From Terriglobia bacterium (GTDB lineage: Bacteria; Acidobacteriota; Terriglobia; Bryobacterales; Bryobacteraceae), in assembly GCA_020073615.1 (NCBI GenBank), contig JAIQEX010000047.1, forward strand, positions 1 through 43,438: a stretch of 43,438 nucleotides of DNA. The letters are read 5' to 3'. A program made the position numbers and the translations under genes. Below, one piece after another: positions 20,611 to 29,913 of this stretch. How positions within the stretch are numbered: the first letter of the stretch is position 1; the number at the start of each line of letters is the position of its first letter. A model generated the notes under the pieces. The model worked only from the letters and a program-made list of their open reading frames with translations, was not told the origin of the DNA and ran no database searches.

Positions 20611-21594
20611 TCACAGCGTCACAAAGCGAGTTCGGACGGTCTCAAAATCCAGCGTTCCCAAATGCCGCTCGCTGGCCAACTTCAAATACCGGAGCGTATG
20701 CCAGTCCAGATCCCAGTAGGCCTTGGCCGCGTAGGCGTCCAGCGCCACTGGATCTGTTCCCGCGATCAGGGTCTTCTTCAACGCCACATCCGCCGGATTC
20801 CCGCCGCCCGGTCCGTTCCTCACGAGCACGCGGAACGCATCGATCAGCGTCAACGTGGGACGCATGAAATCGGCAAGGTCTGTCAGGCTTTCGTGAATGC
20901 GTTGGTGCAGCCGCTGGCGCTCGCCGCCCAGGATGCCATACCAGTTCTTCATTCCCAGCGTGGCGCCGGTCAGGCTGTGGTGCTTGGCAATCGGAATGTT
21001 GATCATCTTGTCGGCGCTCAGAAAGGGCTCCAGCACCGGCCAGGCGTTCAGCACCTGCCCGCGCAGATCGACTTCCCGGAACAGGCGTTCCTCGGGGAGG
21101 ACCACGTCCGCCCCCGCCGCCCGCGCTGCGGCGGCAATGCCGCTGCGCGCGAAGCAGCGCCGCGGTTCGTTGATGGTCACATCCGTGACAATCGCCCGCC
21201 GGGCCCCGGCTTCCAGGCAGAGCCGGCAGACTTCGGCGACTACTAATGGATTGGTGTTGGCGGCTTGTTCCGCCGTGCGGTCCCAGGCGACGTTGGGCTT
21301 GATGACCACCACGTCGCCCCGCGAGACGAAGCGGCGGATGCCTCCCAGTTCCTGAATGGCGCGCGCCGCCATGCGTGCCGGATCGGCGCCCTGAACCACC
21401 GCCATTTCGGGAAGCGCGGCGTCCGCCGGCACCTGAAAGTTCGAGCGAACCGTGGCTGCCGCCGGTTCCGTGGGGCGCTGGCTGCGCTCGCTCAGCCACG
21501 CGCCCAGCCCGGTGGCGGCGGCGCCCAGCCCGGCCACCCGAAGCAGCCGGATCATCGCCTCGCGCCGTCCTGCCGGATTCTCCTTGAGATCCAT
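20611..21594 (-). CDS. DUF362 domain protein with probable Tat signal
   Basis: The 327-residue protein has the DUF362 core: VVVIKPNVAWDR (near 97), VTDVTINEPRRC, INIPIAKHHSLTGATLGMKN, and the closing pattern DPVALDAYAAKAYWDL. DUF362 proteins are of unknown function and are often found next to ferredoxins and FeS assembly or electron-transfer genes. The N-terminus GRREAMIRLLRVAG followed by an alanine/glycine-rich stretch resembles a twin-arginine signal, implying export. ATG 21594 has a weak AAAGG; an internal ATG at 21555 is an alternative. It is divergent from the membrane protein at 21606, only 11 bases away. A second DUF362 gene lies at 26554-27531. Confidence 0.8.
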   Translation of the reverse strand: MDLKENPAGRREAMIRLLRVAGLGAAATGLGAWLSERSQRPTEPAAATVRSNFQVPADAALPEMAVVQGADPARMAARAIQELGGIRRFVSRGDVVVIKPNVAWDRTAEQAANTNPLVVAEVCRLCLEAGARRAIVTDVTINEPRRCFARSGIAAAARAAGADVVLPEERLFREVDLRGQVLNAWPVLEPFLSADKMINIPIAKHHSLTGATLGMKNWYGILGGERQRLHQRIHESLTDLADFMRPTLTLIDAFRVLVRNGPGGGNPADVALKKTLIAGTDPVALDAYAAKAYWDLDWHTLRYLKLASERHLGTLDFETVRTRFVTL

Positions 21595-21605: not shown

Positions 21606-23939
21606 TTGACTCAGCACCAGTTTACGTCTAATCCTGGTGGTGTGGGGAGCGGATTCGGAGTTCGCGCGGTTCTTATCCTGATCGGCTTCACGGCCGCCAT
21701 CGCTCAGATTGTGCTCCTGCGCGAACTGATGGTGGTGTTCTATGGCAACGAGATCTCCATTGGGCTGATGCTGGCAAGCTGGCTCTTCTGGACGGCCGCC
21801 GGCAGCAGCCTGGCTGGCCGTTTGGCGGTGCGCACGCGACACCCGCGCCGCCTGGTGGCCCTCATCCAGGTGGTGCTGGCCGTTGTGCTGCCGTCCACGG
21901 TCCTGGCCGTGCGCGCGGCGAAGGGCCTCCTGCAGACGGTGCCGGGCGAACTTCTGGGACCGGGCCCCATGCTGCTCACCTCGCTGGCCACGCTGGGCCC
22001 GCTCTGCGCGCTCTCCGGAGCGCTCTTCGCGGCGGGCAGCGGGCTTTACGCAACAGCGGCTGCCGCATCCGCCGCCGAGGCGACAGGTTCGGTGTATCTG
22101 TGGGAGGCAGTGGGGTCGTCGGGAGGTGGTCTCGCGGCTGGATTGGCCCTGGTCCGTTATTTGGGATCGCTCGAGATCGCCTGGTTGCTGGCCGTGCTGA
22201 ATCTCGTCGCTGCATCCGGTCTCGCCATCACGGTCCGGCCTCTGCGGCGCGCAGCGCTCGGGGCACTGGCGGGCATCGCCGCCCTGCTGGCATTCTTCGG
22301 CGCGCCGCAGAGCTGGGAGGCAATCTCGCAGCAGCGCTTCTGGCGCGGCCAACACCTTATCGCGACTCGCAACTCCGTATATGGAAGCCTCGCCGTAGTG
22401 GGAACGGAAGGAAGCCGGAGCGTTTACGAAAACGGCGTGGTTCTGTTCAATGTGCCCGACCCGGCCGCCGCCGAGGAGGCCGTTCACTACGCTCTGCTGG
22501 AGCACCCCTCACCCCGTAGTCTCCTGCTCATTGGCGGGGGGATCAACGGCAGCATCGCCCAGGCCCTCCGCCACCCCGCGCTGGAAACCGTGGACTACGT
22601 GGAACTCGACCCCGCCGTTCTGGACCTGGCTCGCGAGTGCCTTCCGCGCGAGTGGCTGGCCCTGCGGGCAGACCCGCGCGTGCGGGTGCATGTTACCGAT
22701 GGGCGCCTGTTCCTCAAAACAACGGAGTCCGCCTTCGATGTGGTAATCGTCAATCTGCCGGATCCGCAAAACGCGCAATTGAACCGGTTCTATACGCTGG
22801 AGTTTTTCCGCGAAGTGTCGCGAAAGCTCACTCCCGCGGGCGTCTTTTCGTTCCAGTTGAGGTCGTCGGAGAACTACATCAGCCCGGAACTCGCGCAATT
22901 CCTGCGCTCCATCCACAAGAGCTTGCGGGCGGTTTTCCCGGAAGTCACAGCCATCCCAGGGGAGACGGTCCATTTCTTCGCGGCTCGGCGCGCGGGCACC
23001 CTGGCCACCGGCCCGGAAGAGCTTCTGTCGCGTCTTCATGCCCGCCATCTCGAAACCAGCTATGTGAGCGCATACTTCATTCCGTTTCGCATGGCGCCGG
23101 ACCGCCTGCTCGACCTGACCACCCAGATCCAGCCGCTGCCGGAGACGCCTGTCAACCGCGATTTTGCTCCGGTGGCGTACTACTTCGACGTCGCGCTGTG
23201 GAGCAGCCAATTCCATCAAGGCTATCGCCGGCTATTTCGGGTCCTAGCCGAGATCCATTTCGGAGCCCTGTTGGCCGGCCTCGGCATGCTGCTGGCAGCG
23301 CTGGTGGTTTGGGCGCGGTTTCTGAGGCAAAAACGGCATCGCCGGCAACTCGCGGCCGCCCTCTCGACGGCGGGTACGGGGTTCACCATGATCGGGCTCG
23401 AGATGCTCCTGCTGTTAGCGTTCCAGGCCGCGTACGGCTACGTATACCAGCAGCTCGCCTTCCTCATTGCGGCGTTCATGGCCGGCATGGCGTTGGGGAG
23501 TTGGCTCGCGATGCGGCGGACGGCGCCTTCCGGGATGCGCGTCCTGGCGGCCACGCAGGTATTGGCCGCGGCTGCGCCGCTGGTTCTGGTGGTTCTGTTC
23601 GAGACCGTCGCGCGGGCGAACAGTGCACCAGCCCTGGTGGCGAGCCGGTGGGCGTTTCCCGCAACGGCGTTGCTTTCCGGCATGCTGGGCGGATTCGAAT
23701 TCCCTGTTGCCAGCCGCATCTTCTTCAGCGCCACAACGCCGCGCAACCTCGCGCCGCGCCGTCCGGGAACGCTCTACGCGCTGGACCTGGCGGGCTCGTG
23801 CCTGGGCGCGATTCTGTTCAGTGCCTGGTTCGTTCCCGTGTTCGGCTTTTTTAGAACGGCCATGCTGTCGGCCGCGGTGAGTCTGGCGCCGGCGGCGATG
23901 GCCATACTTGAAAGCTTCGAAGGAGATCCGGCGGAATAA
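21606..23939 (+). CDS. Polytopic membrane protein with spermidine-synthase-like domain
   Basis: About 777 residues. An N-terminal membrane block of six or seven helices (residues 15-235) is followed by a soluble Rossmann methyltransferase-like domain of the spermidine synthase family (LLIGGGINGSIAQALRH, VDYVELDPAVLDLARE, VTDGRLFL, about 295-440), then a second membrane block (about 555-770). The catalytic motif that reads DSxDP in true aminopropyltransferases is NLPDP here (residues 385-389), so polyamine synthesis is doubtful. Such fused proteins are widespread and uncharacterised. The TTG at 21606 is the longest start; GTG 21642, just before the first helix, is a strong alternative. Its 3' end overlaps the convergent Memo-AMMECR1 gene by 89 bases. 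Confidence 0.82.
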   Translation: MTQHQFTSNPGGVGSGFGVRAVLILIGFTAAIAQIVLLRELMVVFYGNEISIGLMLASWLFWTAAGSSLAGRLAVRTRHPRRLVALIQVVLAVVLPSTVLAVRAAKGLLQTVPGELLGPGPMLLTSLATLGPLCALSGALFAAGSGLYATAAAASAAEATGSVYLWEAVGSSGGGLAAGLALVRYLGSLEIAWLLAVLNLVAASGLAITVRPLRRAALGALAGIAALLAFFGAPQSWEAISQQRFWRGQHLIATRNSVYGSLAVVGTEGSRSVYENGVVLFNVPDPAAAEEAVHYALLEHPSPRSLLLIGGGINGSIAQALRHPALETVDYVELDPAVLDLARECLPREWLALRADPRVRVHVTDGRLFLKTTESAFDVVIVNLPDPQNAQLNRFYTLEFFREVSRKLTPAGVFSFQLRSSENYISPELAQFLRSIHKSLRAVFPEVTAIPGETVHFFAARRAGTLATGPEELLSRLHARHLETSYVSAYFIPFRMAPDRLLDLTTQIQPLPETPVNRDFAPVAYYFDVALWSSQFHQGYRRLFRVLAEIHFGALLAGLGMLLAALVVWARFLRQKRHRRQLAAALSTAGTGFTMIGLEMLLLLAFQAAYGYVYQQLAFLIAAFMAGMALGSWLAMRRTAPSGMRVLAATQVLAAAAPLVLVVLFETVARANSAPALVASRWAFPATALLSGMLGGFEFPVASRIFFSATTPRNLAPRRPGTLYALDLAGSCLGAILFSAWFVPVFGFFRTAMLSAAVSLAPAAMAILESFEGDPAE

Positions 23940-25452
23940 GTGACACCGCCAGCCCGTGCCCGCCAAACACCAGCGCAGTGAACCGGAACAAGTCGGCATC
24001 GGCATCCTGCCATGCCCGTGGCGGGAGACCGGCTTTGTAGCAGGTCTGCTCCACGAACGTGCTCCTGTCCCAATGCAGGTCGCTTGCGACTTGCGGCAGC
24101 AGCAGTCCCTCGTGGTCGCTTTTGTGGATCAGCAGGCCGTGCTGTCCCACACGGATCTCCTGGATGTCCCGCACGCGGCGCAACGGGGACAAGACGGAGA
24201 TCTCGTACTGTAGATCTCCCAGTTCGCTCGCCGTGACAGGGCGGAAGCGGGTGTCTCTGAGCGCTGCCATCCTCGCAACGTCGCGCACGGCGAGGTAGAG
24301 GGGCTTCAGCGGCGACACGAATCCGATGCAGCCGCGAAGCTGGCCGTGTTTGGTGAGCGTCACGAACGCCCCGCGCTCCTGCGCGAGCGCGTCCAGCCCG
24401 CTGGTGGAGCACTCGTAGGACTTGCCCTCCCGCACCGCGGTTTCGACTGACTTTCGGGCGATCTTGAGCAGCGCATCCTTCTCCGGCGTGGTGAGGGTAA
24501 AAGCCGCCTCCTCGCTCCTGGCGCCGCCCGCGGTCTTCACTAGCGCAACGGCGCCGTAGCCGACCACGCGGCTGCGGTCGCCCGTGACATCGCCGCTGTT
24601 GGCGTAACGCAGCACCTTGGCGTCGGTGGCGCCCAACCGCTCGGCGGCGATCATGGCGGCCACGATCGGCCCCCCGCCGCACGCCTCCCAAACCCGCAGC
24701 TCGAGATTCCGCGACAAGTCGAAGTAGTCGTACTCTGCAATCGCCTTCAAGGTCTTGCGGTCGAGCTTCGCCGCGTCATCGTAAGGGTGGAAGTGAGAGA
24801 GATCGGAACTGGCCACGATCAGCGTGCTGCTCCCCTGGATGAGCTTCGCCAGCGCCACTCCCAGGGCCCGGCAGGTATCGTAGCTCTGATCTCCCACGAT
24901 GACCGGCACCAGTTGAAACGGCCCCAGCACGCGTTGCAGGAAGGGTAGCTGGACCTCCAGGGCATGTTCGGGCCGGTCCGCGGACGGTGTGTGCCCCGCG
25001 GCCGAGAGTTTGATAAGCGGGCTCGTCCGGGCGAGTTTTGCCGCGAAAGCCCGGTCCACCGGGATCCGGCCGAGCGGGGTCGCATAGGCCGCGCCGTCAT
25101 ACACCGATGAGAAACCGAAGGCGTCGTAATGCGATGGCGCAATCACTACCACGCGGTCGAATTTCCGGCCCTTCAACAAAGCGTAGGAGTACGCGGCCAC
25201 CGGGCCCGAATAGACATACCCCGCGTGCGGAGCCACCACAGCCACCACGTTTTCCTGCGGTGGGGACGCGGCTTTCGAGAGGAAATCGTCGAGCATCATG
25301 CCGAGTTCCTTCGGGCCGGCTGGGTAAAATGATCCGGCAACCGCGGGTTGCCTGACCTTGGGCGCCGGTTCGCCGCCGCTCAATGGGCCTTCCAACAGAA
25401 GGACACCGGCAAGCACGAACAACGCCAGCGTGCCGCATAGGAGAGTCTTCAT
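23851..25452 (-). CDS. AmmeMemoRadiSam system proteins B and A fused (Memo-AMMECR1), secreted
   Basis: This 533-residue protein starts with a signal peptide (about residues 1-28, LLCGTLALFVLAGVLLL). A Memo domain follows (QPAVAGSFYP, VAPHAGYVYSGPVAAYSY, APSHYDAFG, EHALEVQLPFLQ, ASSDLSHFHPY; about 35-310), then an AMMECR1 domain (ERGAFVTLTKHGQLRGCIGF, YEISVLSPLRRV; about 320-500). Memo is related to metal-dependent dioxygenases and AMMECR1 is of unknown function. With a radical SAM enzyme they form the AmmeMemoRadiSam set. The start overlaps the radical SAM stop by ATGA. Having both domains in one exported chain is notable, since the separate proteins are usually thought of as cytoplasmic. The 3' end overlaps the opposite gene. 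Confidence 0.9.
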   Translation of the reverse strand: MKTLLCGTLALFVLAGVLLLEGPLSGGEPAPKVRQPAVAGSFYPAGPKELGMMLDDFLSKAASPPQENVVAVVAPHAGYVYSGPVAAYSYALLKGRKFDRVVVIAPSHYDAFGFSSVYDGAAYATPLGRIPVDRAFAAKLARTSPLIKLSAAGHTPSADRPEHALEVQLPFLQRVLGPFQLVPVIVGDQSYDTCRALGVALAKLIQGSSTLIVASSDLSHFHPYDDAAKLDRKTLKAIAEYDYFDLSRNLELRVWEACGGGPIVAAMIAAERLGATDAKVLRYANSGDVTGDRSRVVGYGAVALVKTAGGARSEEAAFTLTTPEKDALLKIARKSVETAVREGKSYECSTSGLDALAQERGAFVTLTKHGQLRGCIGFVSPLKPLYLAVRDVARMAALRDTRFRPVTASELGDLQYEISVLSPLRRVRDIQEIRVGQHGLLIHKSDHEGLLLPQVASDLHWDRSTFVEQTCYKAGLPPRAWQDADADLFRFTALVFGGHGLAVSLIPPDLLRSFQVWPSPPAPDSPRPTAWPF

Positions 25453-26549
25453 GCGCTAGTTCCCCCGCCCCAGACGCCTGGGATCGCTTGGTGGCAGAAC
25501 CGGCACTTGCCCCCCTCCAGATGCATCGCTTTGACGGTAAAGCCGGCGCGGTCCACCACTACGCGGCGGCATTTCGGGCACCAGGTACTCTCGGCCGGAT
25601 GGCCGGGAACATTGCCGATATATACGTAATGCAGACCCTCCGCATCGCAGATGGCCTTGGCGCGTTCGAGCGTCGCCAGAGGAGTAGGCGGAAGGTTCTT
25701 CAGCAGGTAATCGGGATGGAAGCGCGAGAAGTGCAGCGGGACGTCCGGGCCGAGTTCCGCTTTCACCCAGCGGGCCAGCCCGCGAAACTCCGCATCGGAA
25801 TCGTTCAAGGTCGGTATCACCAGGTAGACCACCTCGTTCCAGATACCCTGTTTGCGGAGGATCGCGAGCGTGTTCAGCACCGGTTTGAGCTCGCCATTCA
25901 CGACCTCTTTGTAAAACTTCTCCGAAAACGCCTTGAGGTCGACTTTGATAGCGTCTACACGGCGGCACAACTGCTTAAGAGGCTCTTCCTGGATATAGCC
26001 GCCGCTGATGACCACGCTTTTCACGCCCGCCGCGCGGCCCGCTTCCGCGGAGTCCAGGACGTATTCGCAGAAGACCACGGGCTCGCTATACGTGTAGGCG
26101 ATGGACGGGCATCGATACTGGCGCGCCATGCCCGCGAGGTTCCGGGGCGGAAGAAAGGTGCTGTTTACCTGTTCCGGCCGGGCCTGCGAGATATCCCAGT
26201 TCTGGCACATTTTGCAGTTGACATTGCAGCCTGCCGTCGCCACCGATAACGCCATAGTTCCCGGGAGGAAATGGAACAGGGGTTTCTTCTCGATGGGATC
26301 GACGTGGGCGGCGCAGACCCGCGAATACACCAGCGTATAGTACGTGCCGCCGCGGTTTTCCCTCACGCCGCAATAGCCGCGTTCGCGGTCGTCGATCACG
26401 CATTCGCGGGGGCAAAGCTTGCACTTGATCTTCTTGTACGGCAGTTTCTCGTAGAAGCGGGCTTCGATCGTATAACGGGCATCGCTCTCCGCGGCGGGCG
26501 CCGCAAAGCACGGAATCGTGAGCGCCTGGAGAAAAGCCCTGCGCTCCAT
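25449..26549 (-). CDS. AmmeMemoRadiSam system radical SAM enzyme with probable Tat signal
   Basis: The 366-residue product has an N-terminal cysteine region (CKLCPRECVI, GYCGVREN), the radical SAM motif CNVNCKMC near residue 130, the downstream SAM-domain blocks (SEPVVFCEYVLD, VVISGGYIQEEPL, IKVDLKAFSEKFY), and a C-terminal four-cysteine zinc- or rubredoxin-like knuckle (CPKC and CRFC). The start at 26549 is preferred over a frame beginning at 26642 because GGAGGTG lies in front of it at the end of the upstream gene. From that start the protein begins MERRAFLQALTIPC, a twin-arginine signal pattern. Export of a radical SAM enzyme would be highly unusual. Alternatively the signal-like leader is retained in the cytoplasm. 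It overlaps the Memo-AMMECR1 gene by four bases. Confidence 0.88.
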   Translation of the reverse strand: MERRAFLQALTIPCFAAPAAESDARYTIEARFYEKLPYKKIKCKLCPRECVIDDRERGYCGVRENRGGTYYTLVYSRVCAAHVDPIEKKPLFHFLPGTMALSVATAGCNVNCKMCQNWDISQARPEQVNSTFLPPRNLAGMARQYRCPSIAYTYSEPVVFCEYVLDSAEAGRAAGVKSVVISGGYIQEEPLKQLCRRVDAIKVDLKAFSEKFYKEVVNGELKPVLNTLAILRKQGIWNEVVYLVIPTLNDSDAEFRGLARWVKAELGPDVPLHFSRFHPDYLLKNLPPTPLATLERAKAICDAEGLHYVYIGNVPGHPAESTWCPKCRRVVVDRAGFTVKAMHLEGGKCRFCHQAIPGVWGGGTSA

Positions 26550-26553
26550 GGCG

Positions 26554-27531
26554 TCACACCTCCACGAGATCGATAAGCCTCGGGTCGTTGGTCCCGAGTC
26601 CGCGCCGGGCATCTGCCGCGGTGGCGATGTATCGCGGCTCACGGCGCAATTCGCGCAAGGGCTTCATCCCCTTCTCGGCCCGCTTTCCCTCCAGGATCTG
26701 CCAGCCCGTGTAGTCCAGTGCCACTGGGTCGCGCGCCACAATCAGGCCGTTATAGGGCCACGACCATTGCGGCATGTAGGAAGGGCCGCCTTCATACTGG
26801 GCCGTAATGGCATCGCAGATCGTCAGCCGCATCTTGCGCCGGACCACCGGGAACATGTTGACGTCCGCGATGTAGGGGTCCCCGGCATTGGTGTGGTATT
26901 TGTTCGGATTGTGAATGGCGCCGAACAGGTTCTTCAGCGCCAGCGTCACGCCCACGATGCCGTGGTCCTTCAGAACGGGCAGATTGATGACCGCGTCGCA
27001 CGTCTTCACGAGCGTGTTCGAAAGCAGGCTGCCGGCGCTTCCATAAACGGCCAGGTCGGTGTCGTAGCCGGCGGCGTCATTGCCCACGCAGCGGATGCGA
27101 TCGGTGCGGGAGGCCACGCGGTAGCCCGCGCGTTCCAGGTCGGAGTTCAGCCGGTCCCAGATCACGATGTCCTTCTGCGGGATTCCCGCCTGCTGCAACC
27201 GCTCGCAGATCGCCTCCACCAGCACGAGGCTGGTAGCGGCGCCCCGGCCGGAGAGGCAGTTCACCTTCAGGCCGATTACTTCGCCGGGCCGCACCACTTT
27301 CTTCCAGGCGTCGAGCGGGGAGTCGCAGGCGTAGAACGACTGCATGCCCCGGTCGAGCATTTTCAAAACCCGGCTGGAATCAGGAGACCCTCCGGCCGCG
27401 CGCAGCGCCGCATCGCGTGCGACCACAACTTTGGACTTTTCGGAGGCGGCAGCTCTGGCCAGGAAAACGCCGGCCGCGCCGCCTCCCAACAAACGCCTGC
27501 GGGTGATTCCGTCTTGTGAGCCGGTGCGCAT
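26554..27531 (-). CDS. DUF362 domain protein with Tat signal
   Basis: From ATG 27531 this is 325 residues with an excellent twin-arginine signal (ITRRRLLGGGAAGVFLARAAA). The DUF362 core follows: VIGLKVNCLSGRGAATS, INLPVLKDHGIVGVTLALKN and the closing ARDPVALDYTGWQIL. A GTG at 27549 would give six more residues but has a poorer position relative to the ribosome site. The stop lies four bases before the radical SAM start, and the polyferredoxin gene is 80 bases upstream on the same strand, so these belong to one operon. DUF362 proteins may handle FeS or other cofactors; the role is unknown. It is only distantly similar to the DUF362 protein at 20611. Confidence 0.88.
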   Translation of the reverse strand: MRTGSQDGITRRRLLGGGAAGVFLARAAASEKSKVVVARDAALRAAGGSPDSSRVLKMLDRGMQSFYACDSPLDAWKKVVRPGEVIGLKVNCLSGRGAATSLVLVEAICERLQQAGIPQKDIVIWDRLNSDLERAGYRVASRTDRIRCVGNDAAGYDTDLAVYGSAGSLLSNTLVKTCDAVINLPVLKDHGIVGVTLALKNLFGAIHNPNKYHTNAGDPYIADVNMFPVVRRKMRLTICDAITAQYEGGPSYMPQWSWPYNGLIVARDPVALDYTGWQILEGKRAEKGMKPLRELRREPRYIATAADARRGLGTNDPRLIDLVEV

Positions 27532-27611
27532 GGCCCTTGCCCTGACCACATGGGAATTTCAGGTATTCCGATTCCTTTATATCACCATCCGCCGTTGCCG
27601 GCCAGGGTCCG

Positions 27612-29642
27612 CTACAGGGACAGCCTCGCCTCGATGGCACGGCCCAGGCTCACCAGCGCGGGCTCCGTCTGCGGCGTGTCCTGGTAGGCCAGCAGGCGGA
27701 CGAAGAAACGGCCCCGGCGGAACGTCAGGCTCTGGCCATAGCTCCTGCCCGCGTCGCCGAGCGCCAGGGGCCGGCTTCCGGCGGATGGCTCGGACTCGAA
27801 GATCGACGCGGCCCCCTCGCGCGATTCCATCAGATGGATATCCGCCACAGCTTCCACCATTTCCCGATAGCGGTAGCTCGCCGTGAGCGTGCGGCGGACG
27901 CCGGCCCGCAGATAGCGCTCAGCGTCGCCATCCACATATTTCCAGAGATCGGCAGCTTCAAAGGCGCGTGTTTCCCCTGCCTTCGTCCACCCCGGCGCGT
28001 CGCCGCTTTCCGGCAGCCAGGAGTTGGGCCTGGCCGCGCGTCTGAGCAGGATCTGGTTTGTCTGCGACCGGCTCTCACCGACGCTGGTCACGTAAACGGC
28101 CGCCCGGTCCCGCACGGGGCACGCGTACTCACACGCGCCGCAGCCGACGCAGCGCTCGGGATCGATGTACGGCTGCCGGACCTGTTTGACCTGGCCGGCG
28201 GCATCGGTCACCTCGGCCGGGCGGAGATAAACGGCTTTGGGCGAGGTCGGGCACCATTCCTCGCACACGATGCAGTCGGTGGCCATGGCCCAGGGCAGAC
28301 ACCGGCCGCGGTCATAGAAAGCGGTGCCGAGGCGGATCGGCCGGGCGTCGGCCCCGGGCCCGGAGGGCGCCCCGGCCCAGCCTTTCTCCCTGGACGTAAA
28401 CTCCCAGATCGCGCCGGTGGGACACGCCTGTCCGCAGAGGGTACAACTGGGCTGGCAATATCCCACACGCGACACCAGCACCGGAGTCCAGATGCCTTCC
28501 CAGCCCGCTTCGGAAAGCGCGGGGTGCAGGGCATTATTCGGGCACGCCTGCATGCACTCGCCGCAGCGGATGCAGCGGGCCAGAAACTGCTTCTCGGCCA
28601 ACGCCGCCGGAGGCCGGATCAGCCGCTCGTGCGGCTCGGCGCTCAAACCGGTGTTGGCGCGTAAGAGGGGAAGCGCTGCCGCGCCGGCCGCCAGTCCGGC
28701 CAGCACCTTGCGGCGCTTGAGGTCCGCACCTTCAACGGTGTTGAGCGCCGGCGGAAAGAAGCGGAACCGGATCCCGCCTTCCGGGCAATCCGCCACGCAG
28801 TTCATGCACAGATGGCATTCGGCCTTGCGCCACCGCGCGCCGGGGATGGGATCGTCCCCGCCCTGGCAATGGAGCAGGCAGCGATTGCAGTCCTCGCAAT
28901 GGTCCTGGTGTTTCTCCAGGCCCAGAATCGACCAGCGCGCGGCCAGCCCCAGCAGCGCTCCCAGCGGGCACAGCGCGCGGCACCAGAAGCGGGTGATCCG
29001 CAGGTTGAGCGCCAGTATGACAATGAGGATTACCCCCAGCAGAAAGCCTTGTCGGAAATGCGCCTGATGGAGGCTGGCCAGCGCACCCAGCGGCCCTGCA
29101 TGACCAAGCGCGTAGTTCCACGCCGGTAGAATCGAAAGCGCAAACGAGCGTACCGCGAGCGCAATCGGATCGAAAATGCCGGCCAGCGCACTGCCCAACA
29201 GTGCCGCCGCCAGTAGAGCGAATAGCAGCGTGTATTTGAATGCCTGCCACCTTTTATAGCGATTGGAATCGACGCGTTGCCGGCCGGATTTCTTCTCCGA
29301 TCGGATGTTGCCGATCAGGTGGTTGAGCGTCCCGAGCGGGCAGATCCAGCCGCAGAAGAACCGTCCCAGGAACATCGTCGGGATGAGGATCGCGAGGCTC
29401 CACAGCAAGCCCCGGTACAGCGCGCGCGTGCTCAGCGCACTCACTGCGGCGATGAATGGGTCGCTCTCGAGAAAGATGCGCACCGCGGAGGGCAGGCGGA
29501 ATTCTAACTCGCCCCCCGGGAAAGATCCGCGGTATTCGGTTTTGCAGAGAAGGACCACGAACAGTCCGAGGAAGAGACCCTGCGACAGCCGGCGCAGCCT
29601 GCGCAGGGTCAACCAGCTCGCAACAATCGAGCGGTTGAGCAC
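27612..29642 (-). CDS. Membrane polyferredoxin (NapH/NapG-like) fused to a DUF6599 domain
   Basis: A 676-residue fusion. The first 250 residues are a NapH/CcoG-like membrane part with about five or six helices and the paired motifs GRFFCGWICPLG and CRALCPLGALL. Ferredoxin motifs CEDCNRC and CHLCMNC come next, then a second twin-basic hydrophobic segment (KRRKVLAGLAAGAAALPLL) that looks like a NapG-type Tat leader embedded mid-protein. More [4Fe-4S] motifs follow (CIRCGECMQAC, CTLCGQAC, CIVCEEWC, CVGCGACEYAC), then a C-terminal DUF6599 domain (LWKYVDGDAERYLRAG to the end). NapGH-type proteins take electrons from quinol to periplasmic partners. GTG 29642 is chosen from its position relative to a TATACT box; a TTG at 29672 is the longer alternative. 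Confidence 0.87.
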   Translation of the reverse strand: MLNRSIVASWLTLRRLRRLSQGLFLGLFVVLLCKTEYRGSFPGGELEFRLPSAVRIFLESDPFIAAVSALSTRALYRGLLWSLAILIPTMFLGRFFCGWICPLGTLNHLIGNIRSEKKSGRQRVDSNRYKRWQAFKYTLLFALLAAALLGSALAGIFDPIALAVRSFALSILPAWNYALGHAGPLGALASLHQAHFRQGFLLGVILIVILALNLRITRFWCRALCPLGALLGLAARWSILGLEKHQDHCEDCNRCLLHCQGGDDPIPGARWRKAECHLCMNCVADCPEGGIRFRFFPPALNTVEGADLKRRKVLAGLAAGAAALPLLRANTGLSAEPHERLIRPPAALAEKQFLARCIRCGECMQACPNNALHPALSEAGWEGIWTPVLVSRVGYCQPSCTLCGQACPTGAIWEFTSREKGWAGAPSGPGADARPIRLGTAFYDRGRCLPWAMATDCIVCEEWCPTSPKAVYLRPAEVTDAAGQVKQVRQPYIDPERCVGCGACEYACPVRDRAAVYVTSVGESRSQTNQILLRRAARPNSWLPESGDAPGWTKAGETRAFEAADLWKYVDGDAERYLRAGVRRTLTASYRYREMVEAVADIHLMESREGAASIFESEPSAGSRPLALGDAGRSYGQSLTFRRGRFFVRLLAYQDTPQTEPALVSLGRAIEARLSL

Positions 29643-29913
29643 GGGTTGTCCACCACCAAGCCCGTGAAACAAGCCTTTAGATTCAAGTATACTCCGGCGG
29701 TCCTTCCCGATCAGATCTGCCTATCGCCAACGCCTGCAATCCTTCTACAAGAGCCTTGCTCGCTTTTGAAGCCCGCCCGCGTCTCATTTCTCATCGCGCC
29801 TCTGCGTATTCGCGCGGACGGTCCACGTCCGGGGCAACAGTTCCCCCCGCAGGTCGCAGCCGGTTGCCGGCGAGGAACTGTCTCCCAGGCTCTCTTGGCT
29901 GCGGGGACCGGCC
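29643..29913 (-). promoter_or_regulatory. Probable promoter region of the polyferredoxin operon
   Basis: On the minus strand TATACT (29686-29691) is a strong -10 candidate. The matching -35 position has only CTGATC, so an activator may be needed. The leader would be about 37 bases to GTG 29642, with GGTGG as a weak ribosome site. The rest of the 271-base gap up to the decayed gene at 29914 shows nothing recognisable. Confidence 0.35.

Follow-up and report, generated by a model that had tools for sequence, protein, structure and literature searches.

The DNA analysed here, a 43,438-nucleotide stretch from a Terriglobia bacterium that we call the window, carries a gene module that is probably an exported form of AmmeMemoRadiSam, in which the radical SAM enzyme would leave the cytoplasm through the Tat system and a Memo–AMMECR1 fusion through the Sec system, and which likely modifies a substrate in the envelope or membrane. 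An extracytoplasmic AmmeMemoRadiSam variant, as originally predicted from this locus, is strongly supported at the level of sequence by Tat leaders, by variants with Sec-type signals or anchors, by a CxxCH motif in a sister group, and by co-occurring Memo–AMMECR1 fusions that bear a signal. The finding is broader than that prediction, as the signals point to a real exported variant of a system that is known but unexplained. If this is correct, a conserved exported set is present in many phyla, and either SAM and electrons are available outside the cytoplasm or the fold has found a second use. Memo and AMMECR1, both of which have human counterparts, would also gain a place, partners (the membrane protein SpeM and a DUF362 protein with a LarA-like fold), and testable genetics.

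Gene content of the locus

Open reading frames and family profiles define a minus-strand operon that reads polyferredoxin, DUF362 protein, radical SAM enzyme, and Memo–AMMECR1 fusion, and all four genes of the leftward operon that had been predicted are confirmed in place and strand. The radical SAM enzyme (25449..26549, minus strand, 366 aa) belongs to TIGR04337, against which it scores 389.5 bits (cut-off 220). It starts at an ATG at 26549, with GGAGGTG 7 nt upstream, and opens with a Tat-type leader of the RRxFL form, MERRAFLQALTIPCFAAPAAES (26484..26549, minus strand). The ATG of the Memo–AMMECR1 fusion (23851..25452, minus strand, 533 aa) overlaps the stop codon of the enzyme, and the protein begins with a Sec-type signal, MKTLLCGTLALFVLAGVLLLEGPLSGG (25372..25452, minus strand). 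Both of its parts belong to their families, with 275.9 bits for Memo (PF01875/TIGR04336) against TIGR04336 (cut-off 26) and 176.2 bits for AMMECR1 (PF01871/TIGR04335) against TIGR04335 (cut-off 99). The DUF362 protein (26554..27549, minus strand) scores 83.5 bits against PF04015 (cut-off 24); a GTG is listed as its start, an ATG at 27531 is also possible, and a Tat-type leader segment, RRRLLGGGAAGVFLARAAA, lies at 27445-27501 on the minus strand.

The inventory made with the original prediction contained these four genes and overlooked three features: a twin-arginine segment within the polyferredoxin, and SpeM and a second DUF362 protein, which both lie a little beyond the range it covered. 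SpeM (21606..23939, plus strand) is a membrane SpeE-like protein of 777 aa with seven TM helices, a spermidine-synthase-like domain, and further TM helices, and its gene is convergent with the Memo–AMMECR1 gene and overlaps its end. The second DUF362 protein (20611..21594, minus strand) has a Tat-like leader segment, GRREAMIRLLRVAGLGAAATGLGAWL, at 21493-21570, and is found at the same place in four related loci (L218, L220, L221, and L096). Two of these, the close relatives L218 and L220, hold the whole gene set, with interrupted frames in L218, as does the Solibacteraceae locus L096, in which the contig ends within the polyferredoxin. L221 has the radical SAM enzyme, Memo–AMMECR1, SpeM, and the second DUF362 protein, with neither a DUF362 protein nor a polyferredoxin found upstream of the enzyme; L219 has only DUF362 and the enzyme, with no Memo or SpeM in the 10 kb downstream. 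The genome from which the window comes measures 7 Mb and contains TatC, and among the best 80 of 584 relatives in named genomes the nearest radical SAM enzyme is from Solibacteraceae (74% identity).

The same three domains that make up AmmeMemoRadiSam (TIGR04335/04336/04337) are present above all NCBIfam cut-offs, with their Fe-S and metal-ligand motifs kept. The module differs from that system in its predicted export, the signal on its Memo–AMMECR1 fusion, its SpeM neighbour, and, in the Tat group, its DUF362 neighbour. Radical SAM enzymes are regarded as cytoplasmic on account of where SAM and strong reductants are located, and PFL-AE, for one, is cytoplasmic, has no leader, and has no Memo or AMMECR1 partner. 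Such glycyl-radical-enzyme activases (PFL-AE, 3c8f/3cb8) are the nearest solved radical SAM structures to the window enzyme by sequence profile (E 3e-13). The literature searched gave no published account of an exported AmmeMemoRadiSam, and none on periplasmic radical SAM enzymes or on DUF362 together with radical SAM; the most relevant study, that of Burroughs et al. 2019, which may mention signal peptides and is cited in PMC7159879, lay outside that search. A passage of PMC10924467, from the literature on radical SAM and twin arginine, is unrelated.

Export signals of the radical SAM enzyme

A TIGR04337 profile search of 396 genomes of the phylum gave matches in 239, and 60 phylum loci, mostly of the 350-410 bit class, were hand-picked among them. 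The classical group (n = 32) is made up of the 30 top-scoring loci together with leaderless L037 and L041 from the hand-picked 60, and L001, L002, and L004 were dropped as repeats of other loci. Leaders were scored with a strict home-made rule (RR, a hydrophobic residue, and a hydrophobic 13-mer) in place of SignalP or TatP. This rule bears out the signal that the original prediction had proposed to look for in orthologues in 48 of 51 window-like enzymes, and L221, which has no leader in frame, goes against it. All eight enzymes of the haem-type sister group also pass and none of the 32 classical ones does (56/59 vs 0/32; Fisher p 2e-21, a value that is only indicative as the rows are related), and RR itself is present in all 51 window-like sequences. 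The window's own leader passes the twin-arginine and hydrophobic-stretch test, and is short and weaker than those of most relatives; that of L219 is shorter still, and L220 carries a variant leader. Just before the leaderless enzyme of L221 (upstream of about 8131) lies an RpiB-like frame with a Tat-like leader, KRRLFLRASAALPAAAVALPG; this frame, named by reading of its sequence, may have arisen by insertion or fusion, or through faulty assembly.

A true start downstream of the Tat-like region, the outcome that by the original prediction would return the enzyme to the cytoplasm, has no codon to support it in the window: the interval from the RR leader to the first conserved domain cysteine is free of ATG, GTG, and TTG, and the ribosome-binding site is clear.

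Beyond the phylum, the loci from named genomes are the best 80 of 584 relatives; as the ranking was made with an alignment built from exported members, the exported fraction among them is biased upward. By a relaxed rule, which gave one false positive in 20 classical rows and mislabelled some rows, these best 80 of 584 comprise 45 Tat, 8 Tat with CxxCH, 12 Sec/anchor, 14 with no signal, and 1 truncated locus (L150). For the tree and later counts L150 was omitted and five labels were changed by hand (L180 to none; L127, L143, L152, and L155 to Sec/anchor); after this correction the same 80 loci hold 49 Tat-type and 16 Sec/anchor enzymes. By taxonomy as deposited, and nearly always in MAGs, exported enzymes occur in more than 15 phyla: in the bacteria, Acidobacteriota, Planctomycetota, Myxococcota, Calditrichota, Armatimonadota, Latescibacterota, Poribacteria, Verrucomicrobiota, Kiritimatiellota, Omnitrophota, Elusimicrobiota, Chlamydiota, Bacteroidota, Chloroflexota, Nitrospirota, and Thermodesulfobacteriota, and in the archaea, Altiarchaeota and Aenigmatarchaeota. 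The presence of the same exported form in many phyla suggests radical chemistry outside the cytoplasm. In a quick tree of 161 radical SAM enzymes, the four export labels need 11 changes, against 62.9 when shuffled, a count that does not separate gain from loss of the signal; the same tree puts the window enzyme within a supported set in which 79 of the 80 rows are Tat and one has no signal.

Sixteen Tat rows form a single branch of this tree (support 94), and in each of them a single CxxCH stands between the leader and the enzyme (L059, L080, L084, L086, L088, L089, L090, L091, L123, L132, L133, L134, L139, L147, L149, and L159). The motif precedes the enzyme in 0/16 Sec rows and 0/37 unexported rows; the 0/92 in other Tat rows holds by construction, the Tat rows having been split by CxxCH itself. 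CxxCH binds haem c, which is attached outside the cytoplasm, and the motif is an independent sign of an outside location of the enzyme. The members of this branch are possibly haem c radical SAM proteins.

In the Sec/anchor enzymes a hydrophobic stretch comes after a positively charged N-terminus. A Sec-type enzyme would require Fe-S assembly outside the cytoplasm, which counts against the export reading. In L138, L140, L145, and L154 the enzyme carries an N-terminal anchor or Sec-type signal, and the first three have NapH-like matches nearby. What a search for recurrent neighbours returned was for the most part either bound to one lineage or the wrong-frame shadow of a known gene. A CcdA/DsbD-like gene, its identity taken from reading of the sequence, lies near the enzyme in L154, and in some anchored-enzyme loci such a gene looked to be a genuine neighbour beyond the families named here.

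Partners of the putatively exported enzyme

SpeM is the most constant neighbour of the exported enzyme. In the neighbour counts, a locus was judged when a match lay no more than 6 kb away or when each flank was at least 3 kb long, a rule that favours matches; on this basis SpeM lies within 6 kb of the enzyme in 54/76 Tat, 13/14 CxxCH, 8/12 Sec, and 3/20 unexported loci (pooled, 75/102 exported vs 3/20 unexported; Fisher p 1e-6). With 71.8 bits against NF037959 (fused MFS/spermidine synthase; cut-off 40) it is above that family's threshold, and structure comparison makes the SpeE fold common to both clear. SpeM departs from NF037959 in its tie to the exported enzyme, in a SpeE-like domain predicted to lie outside, and in the residues at two key positions. 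In the window protein I313 and N383 are aligned to an E and a D of 1uir, which we take to be the acidic dcSAM-amine residue and the catalytic Asp, respectively. Across the family, position 313 is A, L, I, V, or F, with no acidic residue above 5% and E at the neighbouring position 314 in 17%, and position 383 is N in 44% and D in 16%; E333 (86%), D365 (97%), and R394 (100%) are conserved. As the dcSAM-amine acidic and catalytic Asp positions are mostly replaced, we reject SpeM as a working spermidine synthase. The family profile has 14 hydrophobic segments, seven on each side of the domain, and the structural model (pLDDT 91.5) has seven long helices before the domain and six after, the last of 50 residues. 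Lys/Arg density mostly alternates along the protein, and it is this pattern that predicts the domain to be outside. Judged by fold, side, and neighbourhood, SpeM would be the strongest candidate for a protein that binds an adenosyl compound or passes it on.

The Memo–AMMECR1 fusion provides the second signal-bearing component. Memo lies within 6 kb of 42/81 Tat, 15/15 CxxCH, 8/13 Sec, and 13/24 unexported enzymes, and in this interval is no commoner beside Tat-type than beside unexported ones. A signal-like stretch is present in 54 of the 65 Memo rows beside exported enzymes, with two of the misses truncated and lipobox-like ends in some rows, and in five of the 13 beside unexported ones, where that of L190 lies before the start and is a false positive. 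Leaderless enzymes adjoin a signal-bearing Memo in L160, L162, L166, and L175, and in L175 an anchor-like segment occurs in another frame. Ten genomes were hand-chosen for an exported enzyme with no Memo next to it, and with 25 of their 32 Memo matches read, each of the ten holds one Sec-signal Memo–AMMECR1 fusion elsewhere; stand-alone Memo proteins of 268-343 aa in these genomes have a Sec-type N-terminus in 1/11 cases (L243). None of 12 genomes whose single radical SAM enzyme is classical has a signal-bearing fusion (10/10 vs 0/12; Fisher p 1.5e-6), nine of these 12 hold a Memo match, and a weak 61-bit match among them, L259, has a signal-like N-terminus. The H, H, and C of the Memo motif are kept in 97, 97, and 98% of the 65 rows beside exported enzymes. 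These residues probably correspond to the putative metal ligands H49, H81, and C244 of human MEMO1, as named in PMC11081632.

The DUF362 protein is predicted to have the fold of LarA, the nickel-pincer racemase. Its model (pLDDT 95.2) aligns to 11 LarA-family entries with Z-scores of 14.0-16.4, the next rows reaching 4.9 (VIA-align), and Foldseek also matches LarA-family structures; a sequence-profile search gave no match to LarA structures. While the fold is common to both, the DUF362 protein is shorter than LarA nickel-pincer racemases and has 8-14% identity to them. A DUF362 protein lies within 6 kb of 56/79 Tat-type enzymes and of 0/9 CxxCH, 0/10 Sec, and 0/20 unexported ones. Because it is absent beside the CxxCH and Sec enzymes, it marks the Tat group and not the whole exported form. 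The RR leader is missing in 21 of the 42 DUF362 rows beside Tat-type enzymes, and the original claim that every part carries a signal, though true of the window, does not extend to these loci.

The polyferredoxin (27612..29672, minus strand) is 686 aa long from the listed TTG, its true start being uncertain, and joins a NapH-like membrane part, a NapG-like ferredoxin part, and a C-terminal DUF6599. Two CxxCxxC-type motifs lie in its N-terminal half (residues 259 and 286) and four in its C-terminal half (367, 410, 467, and 508), and between the two Fe-S parts is the internal twin-arginine and hydrophobic segment LKRRKVLAGLAAGAAALPLLRANTG (28647..28721, minus strand), a Sec-Tat dual-targeting signature. 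At this segment, six of seven fused polyferredoxins compared have RR and one has KR before the last hydrophobic segment. With 95.0 bits against NapG (cut-off 269) and 67.0 and 63.3 bits against NapH (cut-offs 213 and 234), the protein is NapGH-like, and not NapG or NapH proper by the NCBIfam models. PMC5449189 describes MLMS-1, a polytopic polyferredoxin formed by NapH–NapG fusion whose Sec-Tat dependence was shown. The window protein shares with it the NapH-like part, the twin arginine before the last hydrophobic segment, and the NapG-like far-side part, and differs from it in the extra DUF6599 domain, the radical SAM neighbour, and scores below the NapG/NapH model cut-offs.

Polyferredoxin and radical SAM genes do not always co-occur, a point that the original prediction had raised. 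Within 6 kb of Tat-type enzymes a polyferredoxin is found in 7/67 loci by its N-terminal part and 8/68 by its C-terminal part, and in 0/9 haem-type loci. It is not core to the exported module, being present in about 1 in 10 loci, and these counts rule it out as an obligatory partner. The proposal that a NapGH-like polyferredoxin feeds the enzyme accordingly does not hold in general; the protein could serve only this subset of exported enzymes.

Mechanism and alternative readings

In the reading we favour, that of an exported AmmeMemoRadiSam, the radical SAM enzyme would fold and acquire its [4Fe-4S] cluster in the cytoplasm before Tat exports it. Cytoplasmic loading of clusters before export is established for Tat substrates in general, and we infer the same order of events here. 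The Memo–AMMECR1 fusion would be exported by Sec, and in most Tat-type loci the two would be joined by the LarA-fold DUF362 protein and by the many-helix SpeM, with its SpeE-like, adenosyl-binding-type domain facing outward. In the lineage of the window, electrons from quinol may reach the outer face through the Sec-Tat polyferredoxin, and the electron route would differ by subset, through polyferredoxin or haem. The set would likely serve to modify, by radical and perhaps also Memo-iron chemistry, a lipid, an isoprenoid, an exported protein, or some other substrate that is part of the envelope or bound to the membrane. The Memo superfamily study of Burroughs et al. 2019 (JBC) is said to link Memo to nucleotide-base and isoprenoid modification. 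The simplest assumption places the substrate in the envelope or membrane; the substrate, the electron route, and the use of SAM outside the cytoplasm are all features that we infer.

A more complete version of this scheme is an extracytoplasmic SAM-radical pathway in which SpeM would bind or pass SAM or a derivative for the Tat-exported enzyme, acting with Memo–AMMECR1 and, in the Tat group, the LarA-fold enzyme. We put it forward tentatively, as a possibility with the odds against it; if it is true, we know of no earlier case of radical SAM chemistry outside a cytoplasm. The absence of DUF362 from the CxxCH and Sec groups, together with that of Memo and SpeM from L219, slightly weakens both this pathway and the export reading.

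It is also conceivable, and in our view unlikely, that the enzyme is exported but is no longer a SAM enzyme, its fold being reused as an Fe-S electron carrier or binding protein. Neither a supply of SAM nor a low-potential reductant is known to us in the periplasm, which counts against the export reading too, a haem-type CxxCH suits electron transfer, and the ribose-motif position is variable in the exported enzymes. That position varies in classical enzymes as well, however, and for this reason its variation is no sign of lost function. Against reuse of the fold, all three cysteines of CxxxCxxC are kept in 100% of the 51 window-like, eight haem-type, and 32 classical enzymes alike, and 36 exported enzymes share an unvarying TYxEP as well as the D and the K of the xDxK strand, the classical group having TYNDP and the same D and K.

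A smaller chance attaches to the idea that the leader is a tether to the inner face of the membrane, with catalysis remaining in the cytoplasm, where SAM and reductant are located. Leaders in the window's family are short and DUF362 is often leaderless, as a tether would allow, but this improbable arrangement has to contend with the CxxCH of the sister group, the Sec-type and anchor variants with positive N-termini, the separate signal of the Memo–AMMECR1 partner, and the fact that RR leaders are typical of translocated proteins. Least probable is an ordinary cytoplasmic AmmeMemoRadiSam whose leaders are over-read N-termini: the window leader is weak and start codons are predicted ones, but we reject this candidate on the lack of a downstream start in the window, the clear ribosome-binding site, and a leader that spans many phyla and is absent from the classical group. 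The window's own genome also supplies a control: it encodes a second radical SAM enzyme (L005/L196, contig C67) with 42% identity to the first, which adjoins a Memo–AMMECR1 fusion of its own, and both of these proteins are leaderless.
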